Shown here in pieces: positions 3,860 to 30,681 of a DNA stretch of 33,387 bases. The translations under genes and the position numbers were made by a program. The stretch spans positions 1 through 33,387 of the forward strand of contig JAHDCG010000058.1 of assembly GCA_020629965.1 (NCBI GenBank), read 5' to 3'. The stretch's first letter is position 1. Each line of letters opens with the position of its first letter. This stretch comes from Saprospiraceae bacterium (GTDB lineage Bacteria > Bacteroidota > Bacteroidia > Chitinophagales > Saprospiraceae). The notes beneath the pieces were generated by a model. It saw nothing but the letters and a program-made list of their open reading frames with translations. It made no database searches and was not told where the DNA came from.

Positions 3860-3877
3860 CTTGACAAAAACCGGACA
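3860..3877 (-). promoter_or_regulatory. Candidate regulon box upstream of GH50 copy 1
   Basis: The minus strand reads TGTCCGG-TTTT-TGTCAAG. Its proximal edge is 77 bp from the GH50 ATG, the same distance as at the second GH50 gene (30664-30681). The 7-bp halves repeat directly with an 11-bp pitch. Confidence 0.65.
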
Positions 3878-6028: not shown

Positions 6029-6035
6029 AGTTTGA

Positions 6036-10387: not shown

Positions 10388-10405
10388 TTTTCGTTTTTTC
10401 TCCGA

Positions 10406-14185: not shown

Positions 14186-15682
14186 TTACATACAACACGG
14201 ATTCTGTGTCCAGTCCGGTCGCAGCAGCATTTCGTTTTGCGGTATCGGTGCGTAGTAATACGGCTCGAAAGAGCTTTCGTTGCTGACATCCACGGCGGGG
14301 TTCAGCGGCAGTTCGCGGTCGAATTCGCGGTCGGCGGTAGCTTCGGCGACGATTTGATTTCTGACCATATCGAACCAGCGTTCCCATTCGGCTGCCAGCT
14401 CCCAGGCGCGTTCCTGCAAGACGGCGGCGTGAAATTCATCACCCGACAGACCCGCCAAATCTACATCCGCATCCGGCGTATTGATATCTAAACCGGCGGC
14501 GCGGCGGCGGACTTGATTGACTGCTTCGTAGGCCGCGAAATTCGGCGCACCGTCGGCTTTGTTTTGCGCTTCGGCGTACAGCAAATGCACGTCTGCCATG
14601 CGCAAAACATAAGCATTGAGGCTGCTGATTTTTGCCGACTCAAAGCCCCGCGTTTTTTGGTAATACGGGTGCGCCTGTGAGGTGTTTTCCCAAGAAATAT
14701 TGCCGCTGAAGGTCGTTTGAAAAGTGACGTCTTTGCGGCGTCCTTCGGGAAATTCCTCGAAGAAATTAATTTCCGCGTAGTAGTCGTCCCAGCCGCCTTC
14801 TTCCGCCTCGGCACTGATAGAAAAGGGCATACGGTTGGCGAGCTGCCAATCGCCGCAGTTGTCGCAGGATTGAATTGCCAGGATGCTTTCGCTGTTGTTC
14901 GGATTTTCGGGCAGCCAAATCGCTTCAAAATCGGACAGCAGTGCGAAAGGAGAATTATCGACCACATCCTGCGCGAGAGAGGCGGCACGAGCATAGTTTT
15001 CCGTTCTTTTTAAAGGCCAACCCGCACTCGTCAAATATACTTTTGCGAGCAGAGATTTTGCGCCCCAACTGCGCACGCGACCGGGTTCGCCCAGCCAGTT
15101 TTGCGGCAGATTTTCTACGGCAAATTCCAAATCGGCAATGATTAAATCATATACTTCCGACTCCGGAGAGCGCGGTTCTTCGCCCGTTGCCGTGTTGCGA
15201 ATAATCGGCACCGGACCGTACATTCTGACCAAGCTGAAGTAAGCCCAACCGCGCAAAAACGAGGCCTCGGCGACGAGCGCGTCGCGGCTGAAAGACTGTT
15301 CGAGGTTTTCAAAATTATTCAAAACCGCATTGGCGAAAAAGACGGTTTGGAAGAGCACATCCCAGTTGTGACGCTTCAACCAATCGTAAGAAGGATTAGC
15401 GGTAAAGCGGTCGAAAGCGCGGTAAGGCTCCTTGTTACTGCCCTCGCGCGAGGTGACATCATCGCCGCCCAGCATAGTCAGCCCGCCCTGTGCGTTGAGA
15501 TAATACTCCATGAACGGACGGTAAGCGGCAAAAACGCCGGCTTGTAATTCTTCGTTGGTTTGATAAAAAGTCTGCGGTGTAAGTAAGCCCTGCGGGTCTT
15601 CTTCTAAGTCGGCGCAGGCACCGAAGGTAAATACAACTGCCAAAAACAACGGCAGGTTTTTGCAAAGTGTTCTATATCGCAT
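14186..15682 (-). CDS. susD-like: SusD/RagB family outer-membrane glycan-binding lipoprotein
   Basis: A 498-aa protein with a lipoprotein signal and lipobox FGAC (C23). DLEEDPQGLLTPQTFYQT after the cysteine is the usual SusD opening. Helical TPR-like segments (LRGWAYFSLVRMYGPVPI, WGAKSLLAKVYLTSAGWP) and the C-terminal VNQVRRRAAGLD and LQERAWELAAEWERWFDMVR blocks are SusD/RagB hallmarks. The length is typical. SusD is the lipid-anchored lid of the SusC transporter and binds oligosaccharide at the cell surface. It lies 97 bp after susC on the same strand. An agar-derived substrate is inferred from the GH50 and GH16 neighbours. Confidence 0.95.
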   Translation of the reverse strand: MRYRTLCKNLPLFLAVVFTFGACADLEEDPQGLLTPQTFYQTNEELQAGVFAAYRPFMEYYLNAQGGLTMLGGDDVTSREGSNKEPYRAFDRFTANPSYDWLKRHNWDVLFQTVFFANAVLNNFENLEQSFSRDALVAEASFLRGWAYFSLVRMYGPVPIIRNTATGEEPRSPESEVYDLIIADLEFAVENLPQNWLGEPGRVRSWGAKSLLAKVYLTSAGWPLKRTENYARAASLAQDVVDNSPFALLSDFEAIWLPENPNNSESILAIQSCDNCGDWQLANRMPFSISAEAEEGGWDDYYAEINFFEEFPEGRRKDVTFQTTFSGNISWENTSQAHPYYQKTRGFESAKISSLNAYVLRMADVHLLYAEAQNKADGAPNFAAYEAVNQVRRRAAGLDINTPDADVDLAGLSGDEFHAAVLQERAWELAAEWERWFDMVRNQIVAEATADREFDRELPLNPAVDVSNESSFEPYYYAPIPQNEMLLRPDWTQNPCCM

Positions 15683-15757
15683 AATTACTATTTGTTTAAA
15701 AGTTTAGTTGTTTAGGCGTTTAATCGTTTTTAAAAGACTAACTGCCCGAACCTGTTT

Positions 15758-15777
15758 AGACCGGATTTGTCCGGTCT
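15758..15777. repeat. Perfect palindromic hairpin between susC and susD
   Basis: AGACCGGA (15758-15765) and TCCGGTCT (15770-15777) flank a 4-nt loop, 2 bp after the susC stop. No U-run follows on the minus strand. It could lower or stabilise the downstream or upstream part of a susCD transcript. Confidence 0.7.
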
Positions 15778-15779
15778 GC

Positions 15780-18700
15780 TCAAAATCCCGCATTCACTCC
15801 GAAGGTGATTACCTTCGGGTTGGGATAAGTACCGTTGTCGATACCCAAATCGACGTTGGAGTCGCCCGCGCCCGATACTTCGGGGTCATAGCCTTTGTAG
15901 TCGGTAAAAGTAAGCAGATTTTGCCCGCTGACGTAAACCGTCAGACTTTTAAAGCCTTTGACGGCGGGCACGGTGTAGCCCAAGCGCACGTTGCGCAGAC
16001 GAATAAAACTCGCATCTTCGATAAAGCGCGAATCTTCCGGTGCCTGAAAGTTGGTGGACGAAAACGCGGGCGTATCCGTGTCTTGATTAGTCGGCGTCCA
16101 GCGGTCTCTGATGTCGCCGTGCGTCGGGGTTTTGACGTCGCCGCTCGTGCCCATCATGACGGCTCTTTGCACGTTAAATACGTCTTGCCCCATCATGGAT
16201 TGCAAGAAAATATTCAATTCGAATCCCTTATAACTGACGGTGTTGTTTAATCCCCAAATCAAATCCGGCGCACCGTTGCCGATAATGGTTACGTCTTCTT
16301 CGTTGATGACGCCGTCTTCGTTGAGGTCGCGGTATTTGGTATCACCGGGCTGCAAACCGTACACGGCTGCTTCCGACTCTTCGTCCGTATTCCAGGTGCC
16401 GTCGTTGATGTAGCCGACAAAATTTCCGAGTTCGCCGCCGACTTCTACGCGCGAAAGCAAACTGCCCGAACCCGCAAAACCTCTGCCCGGAAAGATGACG
16501 TCATTGTTGCCGATGTCCAAAACGGTGGTCTTATTTGCCGCCAAATTGAAAGCAATATCCCAACGTAAATCTTCGCGGTTGAGCGCAAGGTAGCCCAAAT
16601 CGACTTCAAAACCCTTATTGCCGATTTCACCGACATTTTGCAAGACCGCACCCAAGCCCGTGTAGGTCGGTGTGCTGACGAAAAGCAGCAGGTCGGAGGT
16701 GGTTTTGGTGTAATAATCAAAACCGGCGGTCAGTCTGCCGTCCATAAAGCCGAAGTCGATACCGATGTCGGTTTGAGTGGTGGTTTCCCAGCGCAAATTC
16801 GGATTGGCGGCTCGACCGGGCGCGATGCCGATGACGGGCGCGGTGTTGTCCAAAACGGGGTTAAACGCCGTCGGACTTGTTTGCAGTAAAGCAAGCGAAG
16901 AGTAAGGAGAAATAGCCTGATTACCGACCTGCCCGTAACTCGCGCGGAGTTTTAAGTTGTCGAAAATGCCTAAATCTTTGATGAAGCCTTCTTCGCTCAG
17001 TCGCCACGCGGCGGCTACCGAAGGAAAAACTCCGAAGCGGTTGGCTTCCGGAAATTTGGAAGAGCCGTCGGCGCGTACCGTACCGGTGAAGAGGTATTTG
17101 TCGTCAAATTCGTATTCGACGCGACCGACATAAGAGCGAATGGCTTCTGCGGACTGACCGGAAGAAATAACCTGCGTTTCGGCAAAACCGATGTTGTTGA
17201 TGCCTACGCTTTCTACCAAAAGATTTTGTCCGAAAGCAGCGGAGCCGTAGCTGTCCGAGTCCTGCTCTTCAAAAATGGCTTTAATACCGAAGTCGTGTTT
17301 CGCGCCGAATAATTTGGAATAACCCAAAACGTGTGTGTGCTGAAACTGCGTAAAGTCGCTGTTAAATACGTTCGCTTCCGTCTGCCCCGTCGTCGCATAG
17401 CTCGCCACGGCAATCGTCGAAGTCGCGTTGACATCTCTGACCCCTCCGGTAAAAGAGTAGGTGATGTCGTCGGTGATTTTCCAGTTAAAAAATGCGGTTG
17501 CCGTTGCGTTATTGGTTTGGCGGTTGTCGTTGCGTCCGAACGTCGAAGCCGTCGGCGAAACCGCGATAGACCCGTAGGGCGAAAACTTGGTCGGCGTGCC
17601 GTCTGCGGTAAAGGCTTCGGCGACGGGCGCGAAAATCAAAGCCGAGGCATTCGGGGCGAAAAGCAAATCGCTCGCAAAGCCGTTCAGAGCTTCCTCTTTA
17701 GAGTAAGTGATGTTCAAACCCGCCGTCATGCGGTCGTTGAGTTCAAAATCGAGATTACTGCGCAGCGCGAGTCTTTTGTAAAAATTGTTCGTTAAAATAC
17801 CTTCGTTATCGACCAGGTTACCCGCCACGTAGTAGCCGATTTTGTCTTTTTTGCCGTTGAAAGAAAGTGTATAGTTCTGCGTCAGGGCTTCCGTACCTTC
17901 ACGGTAGATTTCGTCTTGCCAATCCGTACCCGCACCGTTTTCAAATTCGGTGATGTCTTCTTCAAAAAACGCCGGCGCACTGCCGCCGACCGCCAACTGC
18001 TCGTTGACCAATCGGGCGTATTCGGCCGGACTCACGATGTCGATTTTCTTGGGCAAACTCTGCAAACCGAAAAAGGCATCCAAGTTGACATTCGAGCCGT
18101 CTTTGCCTTTTTTGGAAGTTACTAAAATAACACCGTTTGCGCCGCGCGAACCGTAGAGTGCCGTTGCCGAAGCATCTTTCAAAACCTGAATCGACTCGAT
18201 GTCGCTCGGGTTTATTGCTCCGAGACTTGCCCCGAGGATGCCGTCTAAGACCACTAAAGGACTGCCCGACCCGGTGATGGAGTTCGTACCGCGAATCCGG
18301 ATACGCGCATTATTGCCCGGCGAGCCGTTGGTATTACTCACCTGCACACCCGCCGTGCGCCCCTGCAGGGCATTTTCGACGCGGGTAATGGGCTGCGCCT
18401 CGAAGTCTTTGGCACTCAAGGAAGCAATCGAACCCGTCAAATCCACTTTCTTTTTGGAGCCGTAGCCGACTACGACTACCTCGTTGAGCAGGTTATCGGC
18501 GGCGGCGAGTTTGACATCCAAAGTTTTGCTCTCCGTCACTTTTATTTCCTGTGTTTGGTAGCCGGTGTAAGTGAAAATCAAAACAGCATCCGCAGCATCG
18601 ACCGTCAGGGAATAAGTGCCGTCGAAATCGGTAACGGTGCCGGTAGAAGTGCCCTCGGCGAAAACGCTCGCGCCGATGAGGGTCTCTCCGGAAGCTGCGT

Positions 18701-18812
18701 CGGCGACGATACCCGATATTTTGAGCTGAGCGAATGCGGAGACCGACAGAGTCAGCAGCAGTACTAAAACGAGATTTCGTTTTAGAAATCGGCAGGTAAT
18801 TATTTTTTTCAT
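15780..18812 (-). CDS. susC-like: SusC/RagA family TonB-dependent outer-membrane transporter
   Basis: A 1010-aa protein with a signal peptide ending SAFAQ (residue 29). Residues about 30-105 are a carboxypeptidase-regulatory-like domain (ISGIVADAASGETLIGASV, DFDGTYSL). The plug starts near EVVVVGYGSKKKVDLTGSI, includes ALQGRTAGVQVSNTNGSPG and DASATALYGSRGANGVILV, and is followed by the 22-strand barrel to the C terminus. Length and motifs fit the family. It imports oligosaccharides with SusD, powered by TonB. It is the first gene of the long minus-strand block. The 18-bp box at 18966-18983 lies in its divergent upstream region, though in the orientation of the MFS gene. Confidence 0.96.
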   Translation of the reverse strand: MKKIITCRFLKRNLVLVLLLTLSVSAFAQLKISGIVADAASGETLIGASVFAEGTSTGTVTDFDGTYSLTVDAADAVLIFTYTGYQTQEIKVTESKTLDVKLAAADNLLNEVVVVGYGSKKKVDLTGSIASLSAKDFEAQPITRVENALQGRTAGVQVSNTNGSPGNNARIRIRGTNSITGSGSPLVVLDGILGASLGAINPSDIESIQVLKDASATALYGSRGANGVILVTSKKGKDGSNVNLDAFFGLQSLPKKIDIVSPAEYARLVNEQLAVGGSAPAFFEEDITEFENGAGTDWQDEIYREGTEALTQNYTLSFNGKKDKIGYYVAGNLVDNEGILTNNFYKRLALRSNLDFELNDRMTAGLNITYSKEEALNGFASDLLFAPNASALIFAPVAEAFTADGTPTKFSPYGSIAVSPTASTFGRNDNRQTNNATATAFFNWKITDDITYSFTGGVRDVNATSTIAVASYATTGQTEANVFNSDFTQFQHTHVLGYSKLFGAKHDFGIKAIFEEQDSDSYGSAAFGQNLLVESVGINNIGFAETQVISSGQSAEAIRSYVGRVEYEFDDKYLFTGTVRADGSSKFPEANRFGVFPSVAAAWRLSEEGFIKDLGIFDNLKLRASYGQVGNQAISPYSSLALLQTSPTAFNPVLDNTAPVIGIAPGRAANPNLRWETTTQTDIGIDFGFMDGRLTAGFDYYTKTTSDLLLFVSTPTYTGLGAVLQNVGEIGNKGFEVDLGYLALNREDLRWDIAFNLAANKTTVLDIGNNDVIFPGRGFAGSGSLLSRVEVGGELGNFVGYINDGTWNTDEESEAAVYGLQPGDTKYRDLNEDGVINEEDVTIIGNGAPDLIWGLNNTVSYKGFELNIFLQSMMGQDVFNVQRAVMMGTSGDVKTPTHGDIRDRWTPTNQDTDTPAFSSTNFQAPEDSRFIEDASFIRLRNVRLGYTVPAVKGFKSLTVYVSGQNLLTFTDYKGYDPEVSGAGDSNVDLGIDNGTYPNPKVITFGVNAGF

Positions 18813-19141
18813 ACAGTAAGAAAATTTAGTGTTGTGTTTTGGATAGTTAATTTTTCCCGAAAAACGGAAACGGGTGATTTTTTTTCAAAATTTCGCCCTT
18901 TTTTCTTTAGCCAAGGTATGCGTTTATCGCAGCACGGAATTAACGTAAAAAGCGCTAATCACGGATGTCCGGTTTTTGTCCGGTGCAGGGCGAAAAGGTA
19001 GTGCGGCATTGGGCTTTTCTTTAGGTTGCAGGTGCTCGGCGGTGGCTTTTGCTTTTACAAAGCCTAATGACGAAAGTCGATGTTACGGTGCGGGTCGCCT
19101 TTTTTTTTAACAAAACGAAACAAGTAAAAACCATCAGCAGT
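18813..19141. other. Divergent control region between susC and MFS porter
   Basis: No gene is supported in these 329 bp. The only strong feature is the regulon box at 18966-18983, nearly midway (153 bp from the susC ATG and 158 bp from the MFS ATG). Near susC the region is T-rich on the plus strand. Confidence 0.6.
18966..18983 (+). promoter_or_regulatory. Regulon box, best copy (susC/MFS divergent region)
   Basis: The sequence is TGTCCGG-TTTT-TGTCCGG, two exact 7-bp direct repeats with a 4-bp T spacer, an 11-bp (one helical turn) pitch. This layout resembles OmpR/PhoB-type operators. Because it lies between divergent genes, one site could serve both. Confidence 0.7.
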
Positions 19142-20692
19142 ATGCGCTTAACAGCATTTAAGTACGCGGCTATCGTCGCCTTCGGAGGATTTGTGTTCGG
19201 TCTCGATGCCGCTTTGATTTCCGGAACGGTAAAATTTATCACCGCCGAGTTTGACCTGACGGACTTACAAGTCGGCAGCGTGGTCAGTGCGCCGGGTTTC
19301 GGGGTGATTTTCGCGCTTTTGGTCACCGGATATTTTGCGGATAGTTGGGGGCGCAGAAAGACTTTGCGGGTTATCGCACTTTTGTATTTGGTGTCGGCGG
19401 TTTCTTCGGCATTTGCGCCGAGTTATTTTGCGCTGCTCGCCGCACGTTTTTTGGGCGGTTTGGCATTTACGTCGTTATCTTTGGCAGCCATGTATATCGG
19501 AGAAATCGCGCCCGCCGAGCAACGCGGTAAACTCGGAGCGATGAACCAAATCAACATCGTGGTCGGGCTGTCGGCGGCTTATTTTATCAATTATCTCATT
19601 CTGCAACTGTCACAATCGGATGCGGCGTGGGTGGCGGATTGGGGCCTGCGTGAAAACACTTGGCGTTATATGTTAGGTACCGAGATTATTCCCGCTGCGC
19701 TGTGGACGGTACTGCTGCTGACGGTGCCGCGCAGTCCGCGTTGGTTAATTTTAAAAGGAAAAACTGAGGAAGCAAGAGCAGTGTTAGCACAACTGCTGCC
19801 CGCAAATCGGGTAAGCGCGGAAATTACGGAGATAGAAGCGAGTCTGGAAACTTCGGACAAAGAATTGTCTTATGTTGAGCAAATAAAGAGTCTTTTCGAC
19901 TCCAAACTCAAAAAGGCGGTGATTATCGGTTTCACCTTTGCGGTAGTGCAGCAGATTACGGGTATCAATGCTATTTTATTTTACGCACCGACGGTCTTCG
20001 AGCAGTTGGGACTCGGTACGGATGCGGCTTTTATGCAGTCGGTTTGGGTCGGAGTATGCAGCGTGGTTTTCACGGTTCTGGCTTTGCTGCTGATTGATAA
20101 AGTCGGTCGTCGCCCGATGACGGTGGGCGGTTTGCTGTGGGCGGTACTGAGTTTAGGGCTGTGTGCATACGGTTTTAACGAAGCGACTTATACTTTGCAG
20201 GAAGCGGATTTGGTGAGTATTGAAAATTTGGAAATCACTAAACTGCAAACGATGTTCGATGTGGAATACGGCTCGGATATCGAGTTTAAATCCGCCCTGC
20301 GCACGCGCCTCGGTGACACGGATGCACGGGCTTTCGAGGGTGATTTGTTGCAAAAAGCGAGTAAACTGCCGGGCACTTTGATTTTATTCGGGATTATGAG
20401 TTTTATTGCGGCTTTTCAGTTTTCGGTCGGTCCGATTATGTGGGTCGTTTTTTCGGAAATTTTCCCCGTACACGTGCGCGGTGTGGCTATTCCCGCCTTT
20501 GCTTTGGTGACGAGCATCGTGAGTTATTTGGTGCAGCAGTTTTTCCCGTGGCAGTTGACGAATATGGGTTCGCGTGACATTTTTCTGTTTTACGCGGTGA
20601 CGTCGGCGATTGGTCTGGCGGCTTTGTTTTTTACCTTACCGGAGACTAAGAATAAAACTTTGGAGGAGATACAGGGGGAGTTGAGTAGTTAG
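19142..20692 (+). CDS. MFS sugar porter family transporter
   Basis: The ATG at 19142 gives 516 aa starting MRLTAFKYAAIVAFGGFVFG; the open frame reaches 19049, but the added residues lack family features. Sugar-porter signatures are DSWGRRKTL (about residue 67), GEIAPAEQRGKLGAMNQ, QQITGINAILFYAPTVFE, DKVGRRPMTVGG, SEIFPVHVRG (about 438) and PETKNKTLEE (about 500). About 12 helices are expected. A charged loop of about 60 residues (roughly 345-410) interrupts the C-terminal half between helices 9 and 10. It probably imports a mono- or disaccharide released by the agarases (galactose or neoagarobiose are candidates). Its position beside susC and the shared box support induction with the locus. 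Confidence 0.9.
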   Translation: MRLTAFKYAAIVAFGGFVFGLDAALISGTVKFITAEFDLTDLQVGSVVSAPGFGVIFALLVTGYFADSWGRRKTLRVIALLYLVSAVSSAFAPSYFALLAARFLGGLAFTSLSLAAMYIGEIAPAEQRGKLGAMNQINIVVGLSAAYFINYLILQLSQSDAAWVADWGLRENTWRYMLGTEIIPAALWTVLLLTVPRSPRWLILKGKTEEARAVLAQLLPANRVSAEITEIEASLETSDKELSYVEQIKSLFDSKLKKAVIIGFTFAVVQQITGINAILFYAPTVFEQLGLGTDAAFMQSVWVGVCSVVFTVLALLLIDKVGRRPMTVGGLLWAVLSLGLCAYGFNEATYTLQEADLVSIENLEITKLQTMFDVEYGSDIEFKSALRTRLGDTDARAFEGDLLQKASKLPGTLILFGIMSFIAAFQFSVGPIMWVVFSEIFPVHVRGVAIPAFALVTSIVSYLVQQFFPWQLTNMGSRDIFLFYAVTSAIGLAALFFTLPETKNKTLEEIQGELSS

Positions 20693-21437: not shown

Positions 21438-22349
21438 CTACTCCTCCACCAATTTCCAAGTCCGCACCCAATCCACGTACATTGTATTCATCGAGTCGTC
21501 CGCCAAATCTTCCTGTGCGGCGATACCGCCCGCCCAGTCCGCGTCGATTGTCCATAAATCCCAAATCAAATTCAGATCGCGGGTAAAATCTCTTGCCGAA
21601 ACGACGCTGCCCGCCGGCTCGCCGTCCAAATAGAACTGAATGTCGCGTGCGTTTTTCCACCACACGCCGACTACGTGATAGCCTTCGTTCCACTGCACAC
21701 CGCGCAACGGATTGTCACTCGACAGGGCACGGTTGTCGAAGTTGCCTTTGGCGCGTTGAGTGTCGCCGTCCACGACGTGAAAATACTGTGAGTTCATTTG
21801 CCACGGAAAGTTCGGCTCACAGTCGCACGAAGGCTTTGAGTTGTTTTCAATGATATCGATTTCGTCGCGGTTGTCGATGTCGCCGTTATTCATCCAAAAG
21901 GTATTGAAAGCGGAAATGTGCGCCGTCTTGATGCGACTTTCGGTGTACATCGGGTAGTTAATTTGGGTGTTGGAAGTGATGCGCGAAGTCTCGAACCAAC
22001 GGCTTGCGCCCTCGTCGAGCGTAGCTTTAATCCAAAGGTTGCCGTCTGCCACGCCCGAGTTTTCCGCTTTCATACGGACGGGCACGCCGTAGTTCCACAG
22101 TTCTTTTCTCCATTTTTCGGTGTCGAAGGTATCGAAATCATCGGTCAGCATTTCGACTTTTTCCCACTTTTGACCGGGGGGCGTTCGGTCGTCGATAGAA
22201 ACGAACATCGGCAGGTTCGGGTCGGTATTTTCAAAGTCACGGACGACCGGCTCCGGGTCGGGCGTCATGTTGACCTCTTCGTCGTCTTTACAGGAGGTCG
22301 CCAAGAAAAGGAGGGCGCATACGGGTAATAAGAATTTTACAAACTTCAT
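21438..22349 (-). CDS. GH16 family lipoprotein, agarase/porphyranase-type
   Basis: A 303-aa protein with a lipoprotein signal and lipobox ATSC (C20), then an acidic linker. The GH16 jelly-roll spans about residues 62-300. DEIDIIEN carries the catalytic signature ExDxxE: predicted nucleophile E163, helper D165 and acid/base E168. YTESRIKTAHISAFNTFWMNN before it and NEGYHVVGVWW / IQFYLDGEPAGSV after it fit the family. The FWM and EIDIIE context is closer to agarases, porphyranases and carrageenases than to laminarinases, but subfamily assignment needs a tree. It probably makes endo cuts in a galactan at the cell surface, feeding the GH50 enzymes. It lies 115 bp after the 22465-23169 gene, separated by a hairpin that could attenuate read-through. 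Confidence 0.88.
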   Translation of the reverse strand: MKFVKFLLPVCALLFLATSCKDDEEVNMTPDPEPVVRDFENTDPNLPMFVSIDDRTPPGQKWEKVEMLTDDFDTFDTEKWRKELWNYGVPVRMKAENSGVADGNLWIKATLDEGASRWFETSRITSNTQINYPMYTESRIKTAHISAFNTFWMNNGDIDNRDEIDIIENNSKPSCDCEPNFPWQMNSQYFHVVDGDTQRAKGNFDNRALSSDNPLRGVQWNEGYHVVGVWWKNARDIQFYLDGEPAGSVVSARDFTRDLNLIWDLWTIDADWAGGIAAQEDLADDSMNTMYVDWVRTWKLVEE

Positions 22350-22410
22350 AATTTTAAAGTTTTATCGGTTAAGAATTTTTTAATGCAGTCGGGAGAAAAA
22401 TCATATAAAA

Positions 22411-22438
22411 GCCGCTGCAAATCGAGTCTTGCAGCGGC
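22411..22438 (-). terminator. Intrinsic terminator between small T9SS gene and GH16
   Basis: GCCGCTGCAA (22411-22420) pairs perfectly with TTGCAGCGGC (22429-22438). On the minus strand TTTTATATGATTTTT follows. It is 26 bp after the stop of the upstream gene and 61 bp before the GH16 start, so GH16 may depend on read-through or its own promoter. Confidence 0.8.
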
Positions 22439-22464
22439 TTTCAGATTGGTGCAAAAATTAAGAA

Positions 22465-23169
22465 TTACTTAATCATCAATTTTTGACCGCTGATTTTACC
22501 GTCTTCTTCCACCCGAACGACGTGCATACCGGGCGCCAATGTGCTGACGTCGATTTGACCGTTCATAGTGTTAGTTTCCAAAACCAACCGGCCCGTCATG
22601 TTGTAAACCTGTACGTTCTTCTCCAAATTATTCGGAGTTGAAACAGAAATCAGGTCAGTCGCCGGGTTCGGTGCAATTTCCAAGCCTTCCAACACGGGGA
22701 AAGTCGTACCGGTGGACTCATCTACCTGCACAAACAAGTTCCAAAAAGTATCTTCCGCCGGGTCGTACTCGACGCGCACCTGCAAGATGTAGAACGCCGG
22801 GCTGTCCGTGTCCAAACTGCCGAAAACCGCTGCATCTTCGGGGAAAGTAAAATCGAAGTCGATAGTACCGTTCAACTCGCCCATGGTGCCGTCAGCGATG
22901 AACTGCTGCTCGTTGTACACTCTGCCCGACCAGTCCGGCGCGTACACATCGTAAGCCACCCACGCAGCCACGGCGTTGCCGATGTTGCCGTAAGATCCGG
23001 TAACGTTGAGGGTCGTACCCTGCGGAATATTTTCCGGGTAAGTATCGCCCGCCACGACTTCGTTGCCGCCGATGGTGTTGACTTCAATGGGACCCATGGT
23101 CGATTGTGCATTCATCGAAAATGCCAAAGCAAAAAGCAAAACAAGAGTGGTGTAAAAATTTCTTTTCAT
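22465..23169 (-). CDS. Small secreted T9SS sorting-domain protein
   Basis: The ATG at 23169 gives a 234-aa protein whose signal peptide ends SMNAQ; the open frame extends to 23235 but upstream codons would misplace the signal. Residues about 22-155 form a single beta-rich domain (STMGPIEVNTIGGNEVVAGD, TGSYGNIGNAVAAWVAYDVY) with no recognised family. Residues about 162-234 are a type A sorting domain (IAPNPATDLISVS, VYNMTGRLVLE, LAPGMHVVRVE). A regulon box lies 132 bp upstream, and GH16 is next downstream. A glycan-binding or adhesion role is a guess from context. Confidence 0.82.
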   Translation of the reverse strand: MKRNFYTTLVLLFALAFSMNAQSTMGPIEVNTIGGNEVVAGDTYPENIPQGTTLNVTGSYGNIGNAVAAWVAYDVYAPDWSGRVYNEQQFIADGTMGELNGTIDFDFTFPEDAAVFGSLDTDSPAFYILQVRVEYDPAEDTFWNLFVQVDESTGTTFPVLEGLEIAPNPATDLISVSTPNNLEKNVQVYNMTGRLVLETNTMNGQIDVSTLAPGMHVVRVEEDGKISGQKLMIK

Positions 23170-23301
23170 AATGAAGTTATTTAAAGTAAAGGGTTTGAAA
23201 TATGCGAGTGCATAAAGTACTTTTGTTAAGTACAAGTTGCCTTCGCGTTATTTTTGATGCCCAAATATGAACAATTAAAGGATGATTGTCCGTATCGCCG
23301 T

Positions 23302-23319
23302 CTTGACAAAAACTATACA
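23302..23319 (-). promoter_or_regulatory. Candidate regulon box upstream of small T9SS gene
   Basis: The minus strand reads TGTATAG-TTTT-TGTCAAG, 132 bp from the ATG at 23169 and in its coding orientation. The proximal half and spacer match the GH50 boxes exactly; the distal half is diverged. Confidence 0.5.
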
Positions 23320-23339
23320 GAGCCTGTTTTTCGGCAGCT

Positions 23340-23357
23340 TGTCCGGTTTTTGTCGGG
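23340..23357 (+). promoter_or_regulatory. Regulon box upstream of the haloperoxidase fusion
   Basis: TGTCCGG-TTTT-TGTCGGG lies 81 bp upstream of the ATG at 23439, in coding orientation, one base off the best copy. It is followed 32 bp later by a good Bacteroidota -7 box. Confidence 0.65.
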
Positions 23358-23389
23358 AATAGGTTTAAAATCGCGGTCGCCGATGAGTT

Positions 23390-23397
23390 TATTTTTG
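23390..23397 (+). promoter_or_regulatory. Bacteroidota-type -7 promoter box
   Basis: TATTTTTG fits the sigma-ABfr consensus TAnnTTTG exactly. TTTA about 22 bp upstream could serve as a -33 element (consensus TTTG). It is 41 bp from the ATG at 23439, and the regulon box lies just upstream, as expected for an activator site. Confidence 0.5.
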
Positions 23398-23438
23398 TAT
23401 TATAACTCTTTCACCCGGTTAAAAATTCCTTGGTTCGT

Positions 23439-26400
23439 ATGAAAAAAATTATTACGCTTTTTATTATTACGGCAATCTATCCCGCGCTTTTTCTCGCTCA
23501 ATCTTTTACGAAAATTACGGATAGAGCAGGCTTCGGCAATCTGCGCAGCAACACCGGCACCGCCGTCGCCGACTACGATGCGGACGGGGATTTAGACATT
23601 TTTATCGTCGGTAAAAGAGATTACACTTCTGTGCAACCGTCCACGCACAGCCGCCTTTTTGCCAATAATAACGACGGCACTTTCACGGATGTGACGGTCA
23701 CGGCGGGCTTCGATAACTTGTACGATTACGACGAAAGCGACCCCGGTTGGAACTACGGCGTGAAAATCGGTGCCGCCTGGGGTGATTACGACAATGACGG
23801 TTTTCCGGATTTGTGCCTGACCAATTATCAGCGTGTGCAACTCTTTCACAATGAAGGCAACGGCACTTTTGCCGAGGTCACGGCGGCGGCGGGTTTTCCG
23901 GTTTCGGACTCTTGCTACTACACCTCCGCGCTGTGGTGGGATTTGAACAACGACGGTTTTTTAGATGTGTACTTGTCGCGTTGGCGCGGTTGCGAAAATA
24001 ATTCTTACTACGAAAATAACGGCGACGGTACCTTTACGGAAAAAACAAACGCACTCGGTTTGGGCAGCGCACACGATGAGACGTGGATGTCAATTCCGCT
24101 CGACGTCAATGCGGACGGGATGTGGGATTTGTACTTAGCCAATGACTTTGCGCGCAATGAATTATTCGTACAAAATGCCGACGGAACCTTCAGCGACCGG
24201 GCGGCAGACTACAATTTGGACATTTTCGGCAACGACATGGGCATTGCTTACGGCGACTACGACAATAACGGCGACTTTGATATTTTCGTCAGCAACATCG
24301 GAGAAAACCGCCTGTTTTCGCCCTCGGCGGACGGCAGCACTTACACAAATATTGCCGAGGAAACGGGCGTTTTTAATACCTACTGGGCGTGGGGCTGTCG
24401 CTTCGCCGATTTTGATTTAGACGGCGATGAAGACCTGTTTGTCGCCAACGGTTTTGAAAATGACTTCATTCAATTTCCTGCCTTAAAAACCAATTTTCTT
24501 TTTAAAAATCTGACGCGAGAAGGGCAAAACACCTTTGCAGATATTTCGACGGCAGCGGGTGTCGCTGCGGAAACCAATACCATTGCCGTCAACATTTTTG
24601 ATTACGACAGCGACGGCGACCACGATATTTTTACCGCACAAACCAACGACATTCCGACCTTTTATGAAAATGAAATTATTGACGAAAATGCACCCGAAAA
24701 CCTGCATTGGACAGGGATGAAATTAGAGGGAACAACTTCCAATCGCGCGGGCTTAGGAGCTTATGTGAAAATTTGGACAGACGGACAAATGCAACAAAGA
24801 CTGTACACCGGCACGGATTTACTGTCGCAAAGTCTGCGCGGCGTACATTTCGGTTTGGGCGCTGCCGCGACGGTCGATAGCATGGAGGTGAAATGGAGTT
24901 CGGGCATTACGGAAACGCATTACGATTTACCCGCCGACATTTATTTACAACTTACGGAAGAGGAGGGCTACACCGTTTTGGATTTAGAGAGTCAAAAAAT
25001 TTACGGCTGCCTCGACTCGCTTGCCTGTAATTATAACGCCGCCGCCACGGTCAGCAACAACGGCTGCACTTATCGCATGGCGCCCTCCATCAGCGGTAAC
25101 GAAAACACGACTTATTTAGCAACGGAAACCTACACGACCGCCGCCGCACCCGGCAGCACTTTTCGCTGGAAAATCGAAAACGGACACATTCTCGGCGGAC
25201 AAGGCACACCGGCGGTGACCGTGCAATGGGAAATCGCGGAAACCGGTAGGGTAGAACTGCGCGAACTCAACGACTGCGTAAGCGAAGCCGCCGTTTTAAA
25301 CGTAAATCTGTCCTTCGACCCGACCGCAACCGAACACAGCATCGCCCGCCTGTGGAACGAAGCCTTGCTTTTTGCCATCCGCAATGACTTCGCCCGCCCG
25401 ACCGTACACGCCCGCAATTTGCACCACCTCAGCGCGGCAATGTACGACGCTTGGGCGATTTACGATGCGCAGGCAAGACCTTACTTAATCGGTAATACCG
25501 TCGGCGATTTTACGAGTGATTTTACCGATTTTACTACCGAAGAAAACCGCATCGAAGCGCGGCGCGAAACCATCAGCTTTGCCGCTTACCGACTGTTGCA
25601 CCACCGTTTTTTGCAGTCGCCGAGCTACTTGGTTTCCAAAGATGTTTTTAATCGTCTTTTCGCCGAAATGAGTTACGACGCTGACAACACTTCGACCGAT
25701 TACGCAAACGGTGACCCCGCTGCCCTCGGCAATTTTATCGCGCAAACCTACATCGACTTCGGGATGCAGGACGGCGCGACCGAACTGCAAGGTTACGCCA
25801 ATGCCTACTACGAAGCCGTCAATCCGCCCCTTGTCACCAATGAACCCGGCAACCCTAATCTCCGCGACCCCAACCGCTGGCAGCCCTTGGCTTTCGAGAC
25901 TTTTATCGACCAATCGGGCAATTTGATTGAAGGCACCGTTCCCGATTTTTTGAGTCCCGAATGGGGTAACGTCACGCCCTTCGCCCTCGACCCGACGCAG
26001 GCAGAAACCTACGTGCGCGACGGCGATTTGTACAACGTATTCACCGACCCCGGTGCGCCGCCTTACCTCGATACTTTGACCGCAACTGCCGATAACGCTG
26101 CTTATCGCTACGGCTTTTCTTTGGTGTCGGTTTGGGCGTCGCATTTGACGGCGGAAGACGGTGTAATGTGGGATATTTCGCCCGCCGGCATCGGTAATCT
26201 ACCCTTTGCGGATTTGCCGCGCAGCGTTACCGACTATCCGGATTTTTATAACTTAATCGACGGCGGTGACGGCAGTCCGGGGCATCGTGTAAATCCCGTT
26301 ACTGGCGCACCTTATCCGCCGCAGATTGTGCCGCGCGGCGATTATACCCGAGTTTTGGCGGAATTTTGGGCGGACGGTCCCGACTCCGAGACGCCGCCGG

Positions 26401-27440
26401 GTCACTGGTTTACTATTCTGAATAAAGTGAATGACGACCCGGATTTGGTTAAAAAATTAGGCGGTAAAAACGAGGTTCTGCCTACTTTGGAATGGGACGT
26501 CAAATCCTACTTTATCCTCGGCGCGGCGATGCACGATGCGGCGATTGCGGCGTGGAGTGTGAAAGGTTGGTACGACTACATTCGCCCGATTTCCGCCATC
26601 AGATACATGGCGGAAAAGGGGCAAAGCACCGACCCGAACCTGCCGAATTATCACGTCGCCGGTATCGGTTTAATTCCCGGCTACATCGAGCAGGTGCAGG
26701 TCGGCGATGCCTTAGCGGGCGCGGACAATCGGCACGTCGGTAAAATAAAACTGTACACCTGGCGCGGACATCCGTACATTAATGACCCCGCTACGGAGGC
26801 AGCGGGCGTCGATTGGATTTTGGCGGAAGACTGGCTGCCCTATCAGCGCATTTCCTTTGTTACGCCGCCTTTTGCGGGTTATGTTTCGGGGCATTCGACC
26901 TATTCGCGCGCAGCGGCAGAGGTCATGACCTTGCTGACCGGCGACGCCTTTTTTCCGGGCGGGGCGGGGGAGTTTATCGCTTACAAAAACGACTTTTTGG
27001 TCTTTGAAGATGGTCCGAGTCAGGATGTCGTGTTGCAGTGGGCGACTTACCGCGATGCCTCCGACCAGTGCAGTTTATCGCGGATATGGGGCGGCATTCA
27101 CCCGCCGGCTGATGACCTGCCCGGGCGCATCATGGGAGAAAAAGTCGGCAAAGAAGCCTTTGCTTATGCTGTGCCGTATTTCTCGACTCCCGACGCGGAA
27201 GAACCCGAAGAAACGGTACTTTACCCCAATCCGGCGGGGCAGTCGGCAACGGTCATTTTGACGGAAACGACGGCGGAAATGACTTTTGCAATATACGACG
27301 TGCAGGGGCGGCGCGTGACGGATTTTACGGCGGAATACGAACCGCTTTTTCGCTGTCATGCTTTGCGAGTCGGAAATTTGGCGAGCGGAGTTTATTTTGT
27401 AGCGGCGGGGGAAAGGGTTTGGAAGTTGGTGAGGGAGTAG
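23439..27440 (+). CDS. FG-GAP/ASPIC propeller fused to vanadium-haloperoxidase-like domain, T9SS tail
   Basis: A 1333-aa protein; ATG at 23439 is preferred over an upstream TTG because it starts the signal peptide (ending FLAQ, residue 21). Residues about 25-410 carry FG-GAP calcium loops (DYDADGDLD, DYDNDGFPD, DLNNDGFLD, DYDNNGDFD, DFDLDGDED, DYDSDGDHD). About 422-505 is ASPIC/UnbV, 522-545 a YGCLDSLACNYN-type Cys module, and 550-620 PKD-like. About 630-1245 is a vanadium-dependent haloperoxidase/PAP2 domain: KGWYDYIRP (K1042, R1049), VSGHS (S1150-G-H1152) and SRIWGGIHPPAD (R1215, H1221, D1225), so all three metal/phosphate-site motifs are present. A type A sorting domain (YPNPAG) follows from about 1259. 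Cell-surface halide oxidation or phosphatase chemistry is possible; activity is not proven. Confidence 0.9.
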   Translation: MKKIITLFIITAIYPALFLAQSFTKITDRAGFGNLRSNTGTAVADYDADGDLDIFIVGKRDYTSVQPSTHSRLFANNNDGTFTDVTVTAGFDNLYDYDESDPGWNYGVKIGAAWGDYDNDGFPDLCLTNYQRVQLFHNEGNGTFAEVTAAAGFPVSDSCYYTSALWWDLNNDGFLDVYLSRWRGCENNSYYENNGDGTFTEKTNALGLGSAHDETWMSIPLDVNADGMWDLYLANDFARNELFVQNADGTFSDRAADYNLDIFGNDMGIAYGDYDNNGDFDIFVSNIGENRLFSPSADGSTYTNIAEETGVFNTYWAWGCRFADFDLDGDEDLFVANGFENDFIQFPALKTNFLFKNLTREGQNTFADISTAAGVAAETNTIAVNIFDYDSDGDHDIFTAQTNDIPTFYENEIIDENAPENLHWTGMKLEGTTSNRAGLGAYVKIWTDGQMQQRLYTGTDLLSQSLRGVHFGLGAAATVDSMEVKWSSGITETHYDLPADIYLQLTEEEGYTVLDLESQKIYGCLDSLACNYNAAATVSNNGCTYRMAPSISGNENTTYLATETYTTAAAPGSTFRWKIENGHILGGQGTPAVTVQWEIAETGRVELRELNDCVSEAAVLNVNLSFDPTATEHSIARLWNEALLFAIRNDFARPTVHARNLHHLSAAMYDAWAIYDAQARPYLIGNTVGDFTSDFTDFTTEENRIEARRETISFAAYRLLHHRFLQSPSYLVSKDVFNRLFAEMSYDADNTSTDYANGDPAALGNFIAQTYIDFGMQDGATELQGYANAYYEAVNPPLVTNEPGNPNLRDPNRWQPLAFETFIDQSGNLIEGTVPDFLSPEWGNVTPFALDPTQAETYVRDGDLYNVFTDPGAPPYLDTLTATADNAAYRYGFSLVSVWASHLTAEDGVMWDISPAGIGNLPFADLPRSVTDYPDFYNLIDGGDGSPGHRVNPVTGAPYPPQIVPRGDYTRVLAEFWADGPDSETPPGHWFTILNKVNDDPDLVKKLGGKNEVLPTLEWDVKSYFILGAAMHDAAIAAWSVKGWYDYIRPISAIRYMAEKGQSTDPNLPNYHVAGIGLIPGYIEQVQVGDALAGADNRHVGKIKLYTWRGHPYINDPATEAAGVDWILAEDWLPYQRISFVTPPFAGYVSGHSTYSRAAAEVMTLLTGDAFFPGGAGEFIAYKNDFLVFEDGPSQDVVLQWATYRDASDQCSLSRIWGGIHPPADDLPGRIMGEKVGKEAFAYAVPYFSTPDAEEPEETVLYPNPAGQSATVILTETTAEMTFAIYDVQGRRVTDFTAEYEPLFRCHALRVGNLASGVYFVAAGERVWKLVRE

Positions 27441-27479
27441 GAGAAGGGTTAGTCTGATTTTTAAAACATCTCTCTGCAT

Positions 27480-27511
27480 TTTTAAAAGCGTTCATTTGAA
27501 CGCTTTTAAAA
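27480..27511 (+). terminator. Terminator of the haloperoxidase fusion gene
   Basis: Perfect 15-bp arms (27480-27494 and 27497-27511; TTTTAAAAGCGTTCA and its complement) are separated by 2 nt. The stem starts 39 bp after the stop and ends in TTTTAAAA, so it can work on either strand. Confidence 0.8.
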
Positions 27512-27567
27512 TCCTTATCTGGTTTTTGTATCTTTCCGCCTGCAAAGCGACAGATTAAAAATCAACT

Positions 27568-28119
27568 ATGAAAAAACAAGAAATCGAGGTTTTAGGCATT
27601 TCCGTAAAAATAAAAGCGGTAGGCGAAGACGACTATATCAGCCTGACGGATATTGCAAAAAGCGAAAGCGGACAGCCGGCGAAAGACCTGATACGCAATT
27701 GGTTAAAAAATCAGCGTACCCTGCTTTTTCTGACGGCTTGGGAGAAAGCGCACAATCCGGATTTTAAAAGCGACCAAATGGACGCTTTTAGATTGGAAGC
27801 CGCCAAACCTCGTTTTAATCCCTCCGTAAAAAGCTATACGGAAATGACCGGGGCGGTCGGCATTATCAGTCGGGCGGGCAGATACGGTGCGGGTACTTTT
27901 GCGCACGTAGAGATTGCCCTCTCCTTTGCTTACTGGTTGGAACCCGAGTTTCAGGTGTATTTTCTGAAAGAATTTAATCGGATGAAAAAAGAAGAAGCCG
28001 CCCTCATTGAAAGCAGCAGGAAATGGGCGTTTGAGAAATTGCTGCGCGGCGCGGAAGAATTCACGGCAGTAGCAAAATTCGGTTTGGAAGAGGTGCTGTC
28101 GAAGGAAGAAGAGGAGTAA
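27568..28119 (+). CDS. KilA-N domain protein
   Basis: A 183-aa protein. Residues about 1-115 fit the KilA-N DNA-binding domain: YISLTDIAKSESGQPAKDLI, RNWLKNQRTLLFLTAWEKAH, then NPSVKSYTEMTGAVGIISRA, RYGAGTFAHVEIALSFAYWL and EPEFQVYFLKEFNRMK. The C-terminal ~45 residues are helical and end in an acidic KEEEE tail. Many Bacteroidota relatives have a longer C-terminal part, so this may be a short form. KilA-N proteins are common in phages and mobile islands; here no other phage gene is visible and it stands alone between two galactan-locus genes. Function unknown. Confidence 0.85.
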   Translation: MKKQEIEVLGISVKIKAVGEDDYISLTDIAKSESGQPAKDLIRNWLKNQRTLLFLTAWEKAHNPDFKSDQMDAFRLEAAKPRFNPSVKSYTEMTGAVGIISRAGRYGAGTFAHVEIALSFAYWLEPEFQVYFLKEFNRMKKEEAALIESSRKWAFEKLLRGAEEFTAVAKFGLEEVLSKEEEE

Positions 28120-28200
28120 TTCTGAGTACGTCATTTCCGACGCAATTAAAAAACCGAATAAACAGGCATTTTACCGCGAGAGGTCAACAACTTAATTTTG

Positions 28201-28234
28201 CAAGAGGTACTGCCGTTCAAAAGGACAGTACCTC
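28201..28234. terminator. Bidirectional hairpin between convergent genes (copy B)
   Basis: GAGGTACTG (28204-28212) pairs with CAGTACCTC (28226-28234). It sits between the 3' ends of the KilA-N gene and the second GH50 gene. Over 28201-28232 it matches 4254-4285 at 26 of 32 positions. Confidence 0.65.
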
Positions 28235-28249
28235 CGCACTTGCCGCATT

Positions 28250-30586
28250 TTAGTTCTGTTCCCCAAACTTCCGCCCGTACAATTTCCGATTAAACTCTTT
28301 CGCCGCCCGTACCATCGGCGCGTAAGGTACGTCCGTATTTCTCACAAAACCGACATTGTAATTTTCGCCGTCGTGCGCTCTGCCCGACTGCGGAGAGTCG
28401 ATGTACTGAAACCAATGTGCGCCGACGAAGTACGGATTATCGACCACGGTTTCCATGTATTTTTTGTACATCCGCGCGCGGTCGGCTTGGTCGGTCGCGT
28501 GCACCAGGCCGGGGTGAAACAGTCCCGACTCCGTCGTGCCGATATGAAACTCTCCGATGAGACTCGGGCGGTCGATTTCCTTTAAAAATGACCAATATTT
28601 CTCGCCGAGCGCCTCTTCGTAAAAGTTATAACTGAACACATCGACGTATTTTTTTGCGGCTTTGCGCACCTCGGGTCCCATGCCCCAGGAGGCGAAGCGG
28701 CAACCCATGTACAGGTGATTGGGCATGACTTCCGCCAACGCGTCGTGCACCGTTTTGAAGTATTTGTCGGCGTAAGTCTCTAACAAGGCAGAAAAATCGG
28801 CGACCATTTTGTCCGAATAATTTTCTTTTTCAAGGTAGTCGATGCCGTCGTTCAACGTTTTCCAGTCTTTGATTTTAGTTTCCCATGCGGCGTTTAATGC
28901 GTCGATACTTTTATATTTTTCTTTTAAAATGCGCATGAACTCCGTCTTCACCGAGCTTTCTGCGGCGTTCCTTTTTAAAGCGTACAATACGATGCCGTAC
29001 TCCTTTGCCGTCTCGCCGGGCATGCCCCAACTTTTTTCGTTGTCGATAAAAACACCGACGCACCACGGGTTGCCTTTGACTTCCTCGGCAACGACATCGA
29101 CGGTGACTTTGACGCGGCGCGTAAACTCCGGGTCGAATACATCGGGCATCGGACCCCAATAATCCATACCCGATTTGACGGTTTGAAAATCGCCGATAAT
29201 CCAGCCGTTGGCGAAGTAGGGCATTCGGTTTTCGTGGTAAAATTCGTAGGCCGCCCAGTTGCCGAAGGAGGTAAAACCCCAGTTCAAAAAGCGATCTTGG
29301 GTCACGTCAATCCATTTTTTTAAATGCGCACCGGGAGTCGCCTCGCCGTAGCGTCTTTCCAGATTTGCCTGATAGTGACTGAAGGTCTCGCCGTGCGCAA
29401 ATTTGCCGATGTGTTGCTCGCGGCGGTAGCTGTAATTATTCGCCAAAGGACTGTCATAAGCCGGCAAATCCAAGAACATCCGGTTGCGCTCGGGATAGGC
29501 GACGTAGGCGGTATTTGTCACTTCTGCATCCAAAGCAACCATACCGCGCGAGTCTTCGGGCGTCACGTCTTCCGGGTCGCGGTAGCGGACTTTTTCGTTT
29601 TTAAAATCCATACCCGTAAAGCTCGTCGTGTTTGCCATGCGTACATTAGCGATGCCCGTTGAAAAAAACAGGTAGCCTTCGGGGTCCACCAAAGACCACT
29701 CGTCGCCGACTTTTTCGGTGCGGAAAAAGCCCGTTGCTTCCAACTGCGGACCGTCTGCCCAACCGCCGAATTTGCTTCTGCCCGCCATAGTGCCTTCTGT
29801 GGCGAGTTGTGCCAGTTCCGCCTCTGCAAGGGCTTTCAGTTCGGCTTCCGTTTTCACTTTACCGGGAAAATCCTGTTTGGCATTTTGTCCGAATTTATCA
29901 ATCAAACCGACCAGATAATCGTCCGGAATTGCGGGACTTTCGACCAAGCGTATATTATCTAAAATTAAAGACTTATCGACAATCGGGTGGGAAACGGTAA
30001 AGTGAATTTCGGCAATTTGTGAAAAATCAATCGGGTATTTCAGACCCATAATTTTCATCTGTACGGACTCGGTATTCCACGGGTTCGGGTCGTCGCGCAG
30101 TCCCGTTTCCGCGCCGACGTATTTGCCTGCCAGTTCAAAAAACAAGGTTTTCGTTTCGTTAATCGGCACGACGGCGGTGCGCTCGATGCTTTCGCCCCGA
30201 GCATTGACGACGCGCACAAAAAGCTGCGCGGAATAGACATCCGTCACGTTTGTGGCATCAAAAACTAAGCAAAAATTTTCAAAACCGCTTGCATCAATCG
30301 GAGTCGAAGGGATGTATTTTATGCCCGGTTTTTTGTGGTTGTGCGGAAAAGATACCCGCAGCGCACTTTTTCCCTGTGTGACTCCTTTCGTATTTTCTTC
30401 GGAAATAACGGCAGCGTCATCAATTTCGATTTCTGCGGTTATTTCATTTTCAAAATCCAAAAGCATCACCTGTTCTCGGTCGTTCCACAGAGTGTCGTTT
30501 TGTACTGTATTTTTTTCGGTAAAGGCACAGGAAGAAATGCCGACAGAAAGAAGAGAAATAAGAAGCACAGCTAAGGTCTTGTTCAT
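28250..30586 (-). CDS. GH50 beta-agarase-like lipoprotein (copy 2)
   Basis: A 778-aa protein with a lipoprotein signal and lipobox ISSC (C20). Residues about 40-215 form a carbohydrate-binding-like beta-sandwich (VMLLDFENE, LILDNIRLVE). The GH50 catalytic region follows: LIDKFGQ (228-234), GGWADGPQLEATGFFRTEK (274-292), DPEGYLFFSTGIANVR, FIDNEKSWG with predicted acid/base E517, and LIGEFHIGTTESGLFHPG with predicted nucleophile E679. HWFQYIDSPQSGR and DGENYNVGF near the end match copy 1. It differs from copy 1 by a longer catalytic-domain insert (about 320-400) and GTTESG in place of GALDRG after the nucleophile. That suggests a different preferred chain length or galactan. A regulon box lies 77 bp upstream, exactly as for copy 1. 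Confidence 0.87.
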   Translation of the reverse strand: MNKTLAVLLISLLSVGISSCAFTEKNTVQNDTLWNDREQVMLLDFENEITAEIEIDDAAVISEENTKGVTQGKSALRVSFPHNHKKPGIKYIPSTPIDASGFENFCLVFDATNVTDVYSAQLFVRVVNARGESIERTAVVPINETKTLFFELAGKYVGAETGLRDDPNPWNTESVQMKIMGLKYPIDFSQIAEIHFTVSHPIVDKSLILDNIRLVESPAIPDDYLVGLIDKFGQNAKQDFPGKVKTEAELKALAEAELAQLATEGTMAGRSKFGGWADGPQLEATGFFRTEKVGDEWSLVDPEGYLFFSTGIANVRMANTTSFTGMDFKNEKVRYRDPEDVTPEDSRGMVALDAEVTNTAYVAYPERNRMFLDLPAYDSPLANNYSYRREQHIGKFAHGETFSHYQANLERRYGEATPGAHLKKWIDVTQDRFLNWGFTSFGNWAAYEFYHENRMPYFANGWIIGDFQTVKSGMDYWGPMPDVFDPEFTRRVKVTVDVVAEEVKGNPWCVGVFIDNEKSWGMPGETAKEYGIVLYALKRNAAESSVKTEFMRILKEKYKSIDALNAAWETKIKDWKTLNDGIDYLEKENYSDKMVADFSALLETYADKYFKTVHDALAEVMPNHLYMGCRFASWGMGPEVRKAAKKYVDVFSYNFYEEALGEKYWSFLKEIDRPSLIGEFHIGTTESGLFHPGLVHATDQADRARMYKKYMETVVDNPYFVGAHWFQYIDSPQSGRAHDGENYNVGFVRNTDVPYAPMVRAAKEFNRKLYGRKFGEQN

Positions 30587-30663: not shown

Positions 30664-30681
30664 CTTGACTAAACCCGGACA
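30664..30681 (-). promoter_or_regulatory. Candidate regulon box upstream of GH50 copy 2
   Basis: The minus strand reads TGTCCGG-GTTT-AGTCAAG. Its proximal edge is 77 bp from the ATG at 30586. A possible -7 box overlaps the downstream TACATTTT (30654-30661), so the site may lie over the -33 region. Confidence 0.6.

Follow-up and report, generated by a model that had tools for sequence, protein, structure and literature searches.

What role a haloperoxidase-like enzyme could play beside agar-degrading functions is the question raised by contig JAHDCG010000058.1 of a Saprospiraceae bacterium (assembly GCA_020629965.1; all 33,387 nt were analysed and are called the window here). Between two genes for agarase-like proteins, this contig carries a gene (23439-27440, + strand) encoding a fusion of an FG-GAP/ASPIC propeller, a PKD-like linker, a vanadium haloperoxidase (VHPO) domain and a type IX secretion system (T9SS) tail. 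The product is probably a surface VHPO belonging to an agar regulon, in which an enzyme domain of the NapH1/XhnO11/iodoperoxidase fold group is mounted on a CRTAC1-like carrier and would oxidise halides.

The frame 23430-27440 (+) is open throughout, and the ATG at 23439 gives a product of 1333 residues, with parts assigned from the open reading frame, motif reading and Pfam matches, all above curated cut-offs. The N-terminus (MKKIITLFIITAIYPALFLAQ) reads by eye as a signal peptide of ~21 residues ending in FLAQ (23439-23501, +). It is followed by the propeller and ASPIC domain (residues 22-510; 23502-24968, +), comprising seven stretches of FG-GAP_3 (E 4.2e-38) and UnbV_ASPIC at residues 438-502 (E 1.9e-13). 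A Cys-containing GCxDxxxCNY module and the PKD-like linker (residues 511-625; 24969-25313, +) come next; the linker of the window copy had no match in the Pfam scan, and was recognised from PKD_6 in two relatives (L132, L186) and from strands in the model. The VHPO domain (residues 626-1250; 25314-27188, +) precedes a T9SS type A sorting domain (residues 1261-1333; 27219-27437, +), detected by Por_Secre_tail (PF18962; residues 1261-1322, E 8.2e-7) and by TIGR04183 (E 1.1e-5, also above cut-off). This tail had been proposed in an earlier, sequence-only reading of the locus and, together with the putative signal peptide, marks the protein as candidate T9SS cargo, probably displayed on the cell surface or secreted, a likelihood estimated jointly with that of the agar-regulon enzyme as a whole.

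The propeller suggested by the same reading was also borne out. A model of residues 22-624 (predicted local distance difference test, pLDDT, 92.1; predicted template modelling score, pTM, 0.86) has murine CRTAC1 (9etn) as its top fold match (Z 41.1 over 451 residues, root-mean-square deviation 2.4 Å), followed by LGI1 propellers at Z ~30. With FG-GAP repeats followed by a UnbV_ASPIC domain, the predicted propeller is of the CRTAC1 kind.

For the enzyme domain, profiles, sequence matches and predicted fold agree. DUF6851 (residues 666-816, E 8.5e-11, 42.9 bits against a cut-off of 27) and VCPO_2nd (residues 1123-1222, E 1.4e-8, 35.4 bits against 27) were both found, and sequence matches in the PDB were exclusively to VHPOs. 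An AlphaFold2 model of residues 626-1250, built from an alignment with 73 relatives (pLDDT 91.4, pTM 0.93), has its helices in two groups (model residues 10-152 and 341-623); PMC4859513 describes two helical bundles in VHPOs and one in acid phosphatase. XhnO11, NapH3 and NapH1 were the top Foldseek matches. VIA-align gave Z 30.5 for NapH1, 30.4 for XhnO11, 29.5 for NapH3, 28.0 for the Zobellia iodoperoxidase, 22.1 for Curvularia chloroperoxidase, 14.8 for Ascophyllum bromoperoxidase and 12.5 for acid phosphatases; bacterial VHPOs align over 386-440 residues (Z 27.8-30.5), acid phosphatases over ~200. The model is not that of a PAP2 or class A acid phosphatase, for which a single bundle and acid phosphatases as nearest neighbours would be expected. 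The three metal-site motifs, read directly at the positions previously reported, are K1042-x6-R1049-P1050 (26562-26588, +; vanadate-binding Lys/Arg by homology), S1150-G1151-H1152 (26886-26894, +; catalytic His motif by homology) and S1214-R1215-x5-H1221-x3-D1225 (27081-27113 for R1215 to D1225, +), with H1221 the presumed vanadium ligand. K1042, R1049, S1150, G1151, H1152, R1215, H1221 and D1225 are invariant in 163/163 full-length domains, as are D968, E975, H989, W1039 and F1145; this set includes the window and some near-copies, incomplete domains having been dropped beforehand. Retention in every full-length domain places the metal-site residues beyond chance, the fold and sequence alignments agree with these residues converging in space, and by predicted fold, site and profiles the domain is a member of the VHPO superfamily.

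Three points count against reading haloperoxidase chemistry from this: the K/R/SGH/R/H motif set is common to PAP2 phosphatases too, the match to NapH3, the PDB entry title of which names a homologue catalysing a rearrangement, is almost equal to that to NapH1, and loop 1136-1145, bearing F1145, was modelled poorly (mean pLDDT 57). Two alternatives were weighed. The protein could be a surface phosphatase or phosphate-ester hydrolase, its site binding phosphate instead of vanadate and freeing phosphate from algal matter; a PafA-like alkaline phosphatase gene (named by eye) lies a few genes from the fusion in 23 of the best 80 loci of a contig scan described below, and, according to PMC4859513, VHPOs and acid phosphatases are related with a common site and Curvularia chloroperoxidase is reported to have phosphatase activity. 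However, the predicted fold matches VHPOs (Z 28-30, ~390-440 residues aligned) far better than it does acid phosphatases (Z 12.5, ~200 aligned) and the PDB sequence matches point the same way, making a phosphatase improbable; phosphatase could still be a side activity. Alternatively, the VHPO-fold enzyme might no longer carry out haloperoxidase chemistry and, like NapH3, catalyse something else, with a phenolic substrate or one linked to polysaccharide. NapH3 is among the nearest folds (Z 29.5), and the strong conservation of the 620-residue domain (mostly 55-66% identity across the phylum) hints at a specific substrate over bulk release of hypohalous acid (HOX), but SGH is present in 163/163 members of the family where NapH3 has SGF, and the presumed vanadate-binding residues are all retained; such a reaction is regarded as unlikely.

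In the haloperoxidase interpretation, H1221 would hold vanadate, cradled by K1042, R1049, S1150, G1151 and R1215; H2O2 would convert this to peroxovanadate, and attack by halide would yield HOX immediately outside the cell. The SGH motif, in place of SGS in XhnO11 or SGF in NapH3, suggests that HOX would be released in diffusible form. W1039 and F1145 lie at the positions of chloroperoxidase W350 and F397. The iodoperoxidase also has W and F at these places in the alignment, and the two residues are therefore uninformative on the halide.

The link to agar degradation comes from a 15-mer, TGTCCGGTTTTTGTC, which bears out the regulon box that the sequence-only reading gave to this gene. Exact copies lie at 23340-23354 (+), 84 nt 5′ of the fusion-gene ATG; at 3863-3877 (-), 80 nt 5′ of the agarase-like gene 1611-3782; and at 18966-18980 (+), 86 nt 5′ of ATG 19067 of a major facilitator superfamily (MFS) transporter gene (68 nt from TTG 19049), to which SusC is divergent. 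Copies with two mismatches are found at 30667-30681 (-), 80 nt 5′ of the agarase-like gene 28250-30586, and at 1409-1423 (-), 175 nt 5′ of a T9SS-tailed gene (241-1233). The three exact copies are the only ones in the 6.52-Mb assembly. Allowing up to two mismatches gives 48 genome sites, compared with 24 when the reversed word is used as a control, and the window has five of the 48 where 0.22 are expected (P 3.7e-6); 30 of the 48 sites were inspected, and among the 25 of these outside the window 20 are inside open frames of >180 codons. Since the word was found by looking, it was calibrated with Markov resamples: a word of 15 nt is the longest found in three or more of the 14 intergenic stretches, compared with 8-12 in the resamples (n=500). 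The box thus stands at a near-fixed distance before the start codons of both agarase-like genes, the fusion gene and, if ATG 19067 is the start, the MFS gene (80, 80, 84 and 86 nt). It reads TGTC-N7-TGTC, two direct repeats spaced by about one helical turn, which would suit a regulator dimer. The fusion gene is therefore predicted to be co-switched with the agarase-like and sugar transporter genes through a common operator or promoter element, the more probable arrangement when judged, again jointly, with the whole agar-regulon interpretation.

The 'good promoter' also claimed for this gene was dropped: sigma70-type matches in 22300-28300 numbered 7, against 5.5 (sd 2.6) in shuffled sequence, in a scan that covered sigma70-type and not Bacteroidota-type promoters. 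No direct or inverted repeats were found in 23236-23438. Directly 3′ of the fusion gene is a KilA-N domain gene (27568-28119, +), just 5′ of which, at 27515, a word weakly resembles the box (3 of 16 positions mismatched).

The window looks agarolytic from the genes that the boxes precede and their neighbours. The product of 28250-30586 (-) matches Agarase_CBM (1.1e-32) and has a GH42-like barrel; that of 1611-3782 (-) matches the GH42-like profile above cut-off and Agarase_CBM just below it (26.1 vs 26.3 bits), and the two are 38% identical over part of their length. Both are presumably GH50-like, a family that no search result names. The MFS sugar transporter gene (19067-20692, +; Sugar_tr 4.8e-94) is accompanied by SusC (15780-18812) and SusD (14186-15682) genes (14186-18812, -), which head a one-strand series (4301-18812, -) continuing with genes for three FG-GAP/ASPIC proteins and for a TPR protein that has matches of cytochrome c554-like type. 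A second word, AAAAGCCGCTGCA, is repeated at 20727 and 22407, at 22406-22443 within a terminator-like hairpin.

A surface haloperoxidase under the same switch as agarases could be explained by algal defence. The agarases would make agar oligosaccharides, by which red algae would be provoked into H2O2 release, and the fusion enzyme would consume this H2O2 or convert it to HOX. The defence of Gracilaria conferta against agar-degrading epiphytes has reportedly been studied. According to PMC11101764, red algae such as Gracilaria respond to agar oligosaccharides with a peroxide burst in which most epibionts are lost: G. gracilis released H2O2 to a median of 44.4 µM (control 0.175) and bacterial numbers fell by >75% within 72 h. 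PMC9296495 reports upregulation of Zobellia vIPO3 on Ascophyllum. By analogy with the published work on Gracilaria, an agarase regulon including a surface haloperoxidase would represent a bacterial counter-measure to the algal burst or, alternatively, a means of turning host peroxide into HOX against rivals under a switch shared with the digestion enzymes.

Neither the VHPO domain nor its fusion to a propeller is confined to this genome. At E <= 1e-10 the domain was matched in 47/100 near genomes and 34/395 genomes of the phylum (own genome included in each), counts that take in small relatives of about 440-540 residues. Large-domain copies fetched amount to 87 frames, including that of the window and partial ones; most consist of signal peptide, domain and a tail of ~70-150 residues, and others have MopE-like or other repeats C-terminal to the domain. 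An N-terminal propeller is present in 7/87. Type A comprises the window copy, L132 and L154; the scan of L132 showed ASPIC and the PKD-like linker there. Type B comprises L098, L101, L121 and L147, three of which were scanned and gave no ASPIC match. A contig scan over 84,980 species was run with two type-A propeller patterns; of its best 80 loci, which were fetched, 78 have propeller and VHPO domain in a single frame (not L208 and L222; L206 and L215 are broken or cut). For L208 the tblastn match spans 7-1323, and its propeller may thus sit only in other frames. The fusion, with at least 79 database copies, mostly from Flavobacteriaceae, is therefore not unique to the window. Hosts among the best 80 loci are Winogradskyella, Psychroserpens, Polaribacter, Maribacter, Flavobacterium, other Flavobacteriaceae and Reichenbachiella, with single records from Prolixibacteraceae, Saprospiraceae (on the contig that also gave L154) and Opitutaceae. 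The last (L218:7947-12071) is a propeller-VHPO fusion in a Verrucomicrobiota metagenome-assembled genome, its VHPO domain 49% identical to that of the window; across Bacteroidota the 620-residue domain is mostly 55-66% identical. Tamlana nanhaiensis has two type-A fusion genes in tandem (L192:7968-16044), and the fusion copy of a Winogradskyella record (L179) comes after two ~570-residue frames that group with the fusion family.

In a quick tree (165 rows), 78/84 propeller rows and two propeller-less rows (L151, L208) formed one clade (Shimodaira-Hasegawa-like approximate likelihood ratio test, SH-aLRT, 99), outside which fell type-A-like L202 and L218 and the four type-B rows. In a careful tree (35 rows) a weakly supported branch (50/59) held all of type A to one side; type B, considered for an independent origin and set apart in the quick tree, had L098 away from L101, L121 and L147 here, and a single clade of all fusions (A and B) was not rejected by the approximately unbiased test (p 0.065). 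Placement of the window copy beside Reichenbachiella in the quick tree was unsupported in the careful one. Among the 100 near genomes type-A fusions were seen only in the window's own genome and in G076, from another family of the same order, and a search of 59 other genomes found neither an exact box nor, at E <= 1e-60, an agarase relative. As exact box and close agarase relatives are not in those 59 genomes and the type-A fusion is rare among near ones, agarases, fusion and switch look like a package acquired together.

The surroundings of the fusion elsewhere and the content of its own genome add to the evidence against the agar-regulon interpretation. Counting 80 propeller-fusion genes (79 database copies from the best 80 loci plus the window), 36/80 lie at a housekeeping site, recognised by two or more members of a conserved gene series: porU, porV, cdd, pdh, M28 and SDR on one side and SprT, GMP, DUF389, MlaF/E and pafA on the other (names by eye). 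No relatives of the window agarases were found in the best 80 fetched loci (phmmer E <= 1e-6), and an agarase relative is present anywhere in the genome in 6/31 fusion-bearing genomes (E <= 1e-60). With 36/80 copies at the housekeeping site and agarases near none of the best 80 loci, an agar role cannot be the general role of the fusion; the proposal of a haloperoxidase in an agarolytic locus has support in this window, where box and agarase-like genes coincide, and is unsupported as a rule. The window's genome also encodes, elsewhere, a 445-residue orthologue of the Zobellia vanadium iodoperoxidase (G000:C127; L012:1633-2970, -; E 5e-157 to 4cit) and a second large VHPO paralogue of 1052 residues (G000:C272:59728-61608; L002:283-3441, -), which is 59% identical in the domain and has, in place of the propeller, a T9SS tail and five matches to MopE-type metal-binding motifs; the function may thus be redundant.

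The 36/80 copies whose loci have two or more genes of the porV/pdh ... SprT/MlaF site favour a housekeeping surface enzyme, serving in competition or biofilm and standing beside agarases by accident. SusD frequency at other loci was also counted for this explanation: 6/34 against 2.4 expected, a weak enrichment (p 0.03) in loci chosen with the data already in view (41 not at the housekeeping site, less near-duplicates), with occurrences from a purpose-made profile and the expectation from PF07980 counts. Against it, the fusion gene of the window has a box that is unique to the window and at the same spacing as those of both agarase-like genes, and several other copies are inside carbohydrate-active enzyme (CAZyme) gene clusters, so an accidental neighbourhood has a low probability. 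Direct neighbours were scanned one by one in 24 non-housekeeping loci, chosen partly for close, co-directional genes, and CAZymes or sulfatases were found in 6/24: glycoside hydrolase (GH) family GH97 in L157; pectate-lyase-like genes on both sides in L161, with GH88 and fucosidases nearby; GH92 in L174; glucuronyl-esterase-like and GH10 neighbours in L186, with GH43, GH97 and an arabinofuranosidase domain nearby; fucosidase and sulfatase in L211; and GH5-CBM6 in L217. Four more (L176, L185, L192, L225) have DUF2264 neighbours, and the rest have unrelated or unclear ones, e.g. aminotransferase, RecJ, transporters, thioredoxin-like proteins and glycosyltransferase. Neighbour families were tallied over two genes per side (113 proteins, already-scanned genes excluded, 25 commonest families per set), and clustering of neighbourhoods in the best 80 loci brought out the housekeeping site and no partner gene of telling function. 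A CAZyme neighbourhood is a leaning of the fusion and no rule.

More tentatively, these loci (agar here; GH10/GH43/GH97, fucosidase/sulfatase, GH92 or GH5 clusters elsewhere) could reflect an interchangeable oxidative module that recurs in polysaccharide-utilisation loci. Propeller-borne extracellular VHPOs would then be acquired with CAZymes under a common switch, coupling polymer attack to disposal or weaponised use of host H2O2 or to oxidative loosening of the polymer; this wider generalisation is possible but doubtful.

A search of the available papers did not find a propeller-VHPO fusion described, and haloperoxidase terms are absent from PMC10919026. As far as these searches go, the CRTAC1-type carrier, the spread of a large conserved VHPO group and the switch common with agarases are new, and the finding brings out that group as widespread across Bacteroidota, with the single Verrucomicrobiota copy.

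Among known systems, the bacterial vanadium chloroperoxidase NapH1 (3w35/3w36) and XhnO11 (9l8x) are closest in fold over the whole 620-residue domain, and their K-x6-RP and SR-x5-H regions align with it, but identity is 18-24% and, judging from the matches, the solved chains have neither propeller nor T9SS tail. In alignments, XhnO11 has SGS and NapH3 SGF where the window family has SGH like the iodoperoxidase. The large VHPO group of the fusion is without a close relative among solved structures. Curvularia inaequalis vanadium chloroperoxidase shares the fold at Z 22, the W three before K and the F five before the S of SGH, differs in having 16-18% identity to the window domain and is not known to have a propeller or T9SS tail. 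The carrier resembles CRTAC1 in joining an FG-GAP propeller to ASPIC, CRTAC1 itself being an extracellular protein of animals that is not known to carry an enzyme domain of this kind. The Zobellia galactanivorans vanadium iodoperoxidase (4cit/4usz) differs in its 458-residue chain and its E of 0.0012 to the window protein, its true orthologue being the separate gene on C127, but it shares the PPF-x2-Y-x-SGHS context, the SR-x5-H motif, the fold (Z 28) and a marine Bacteroidota host.

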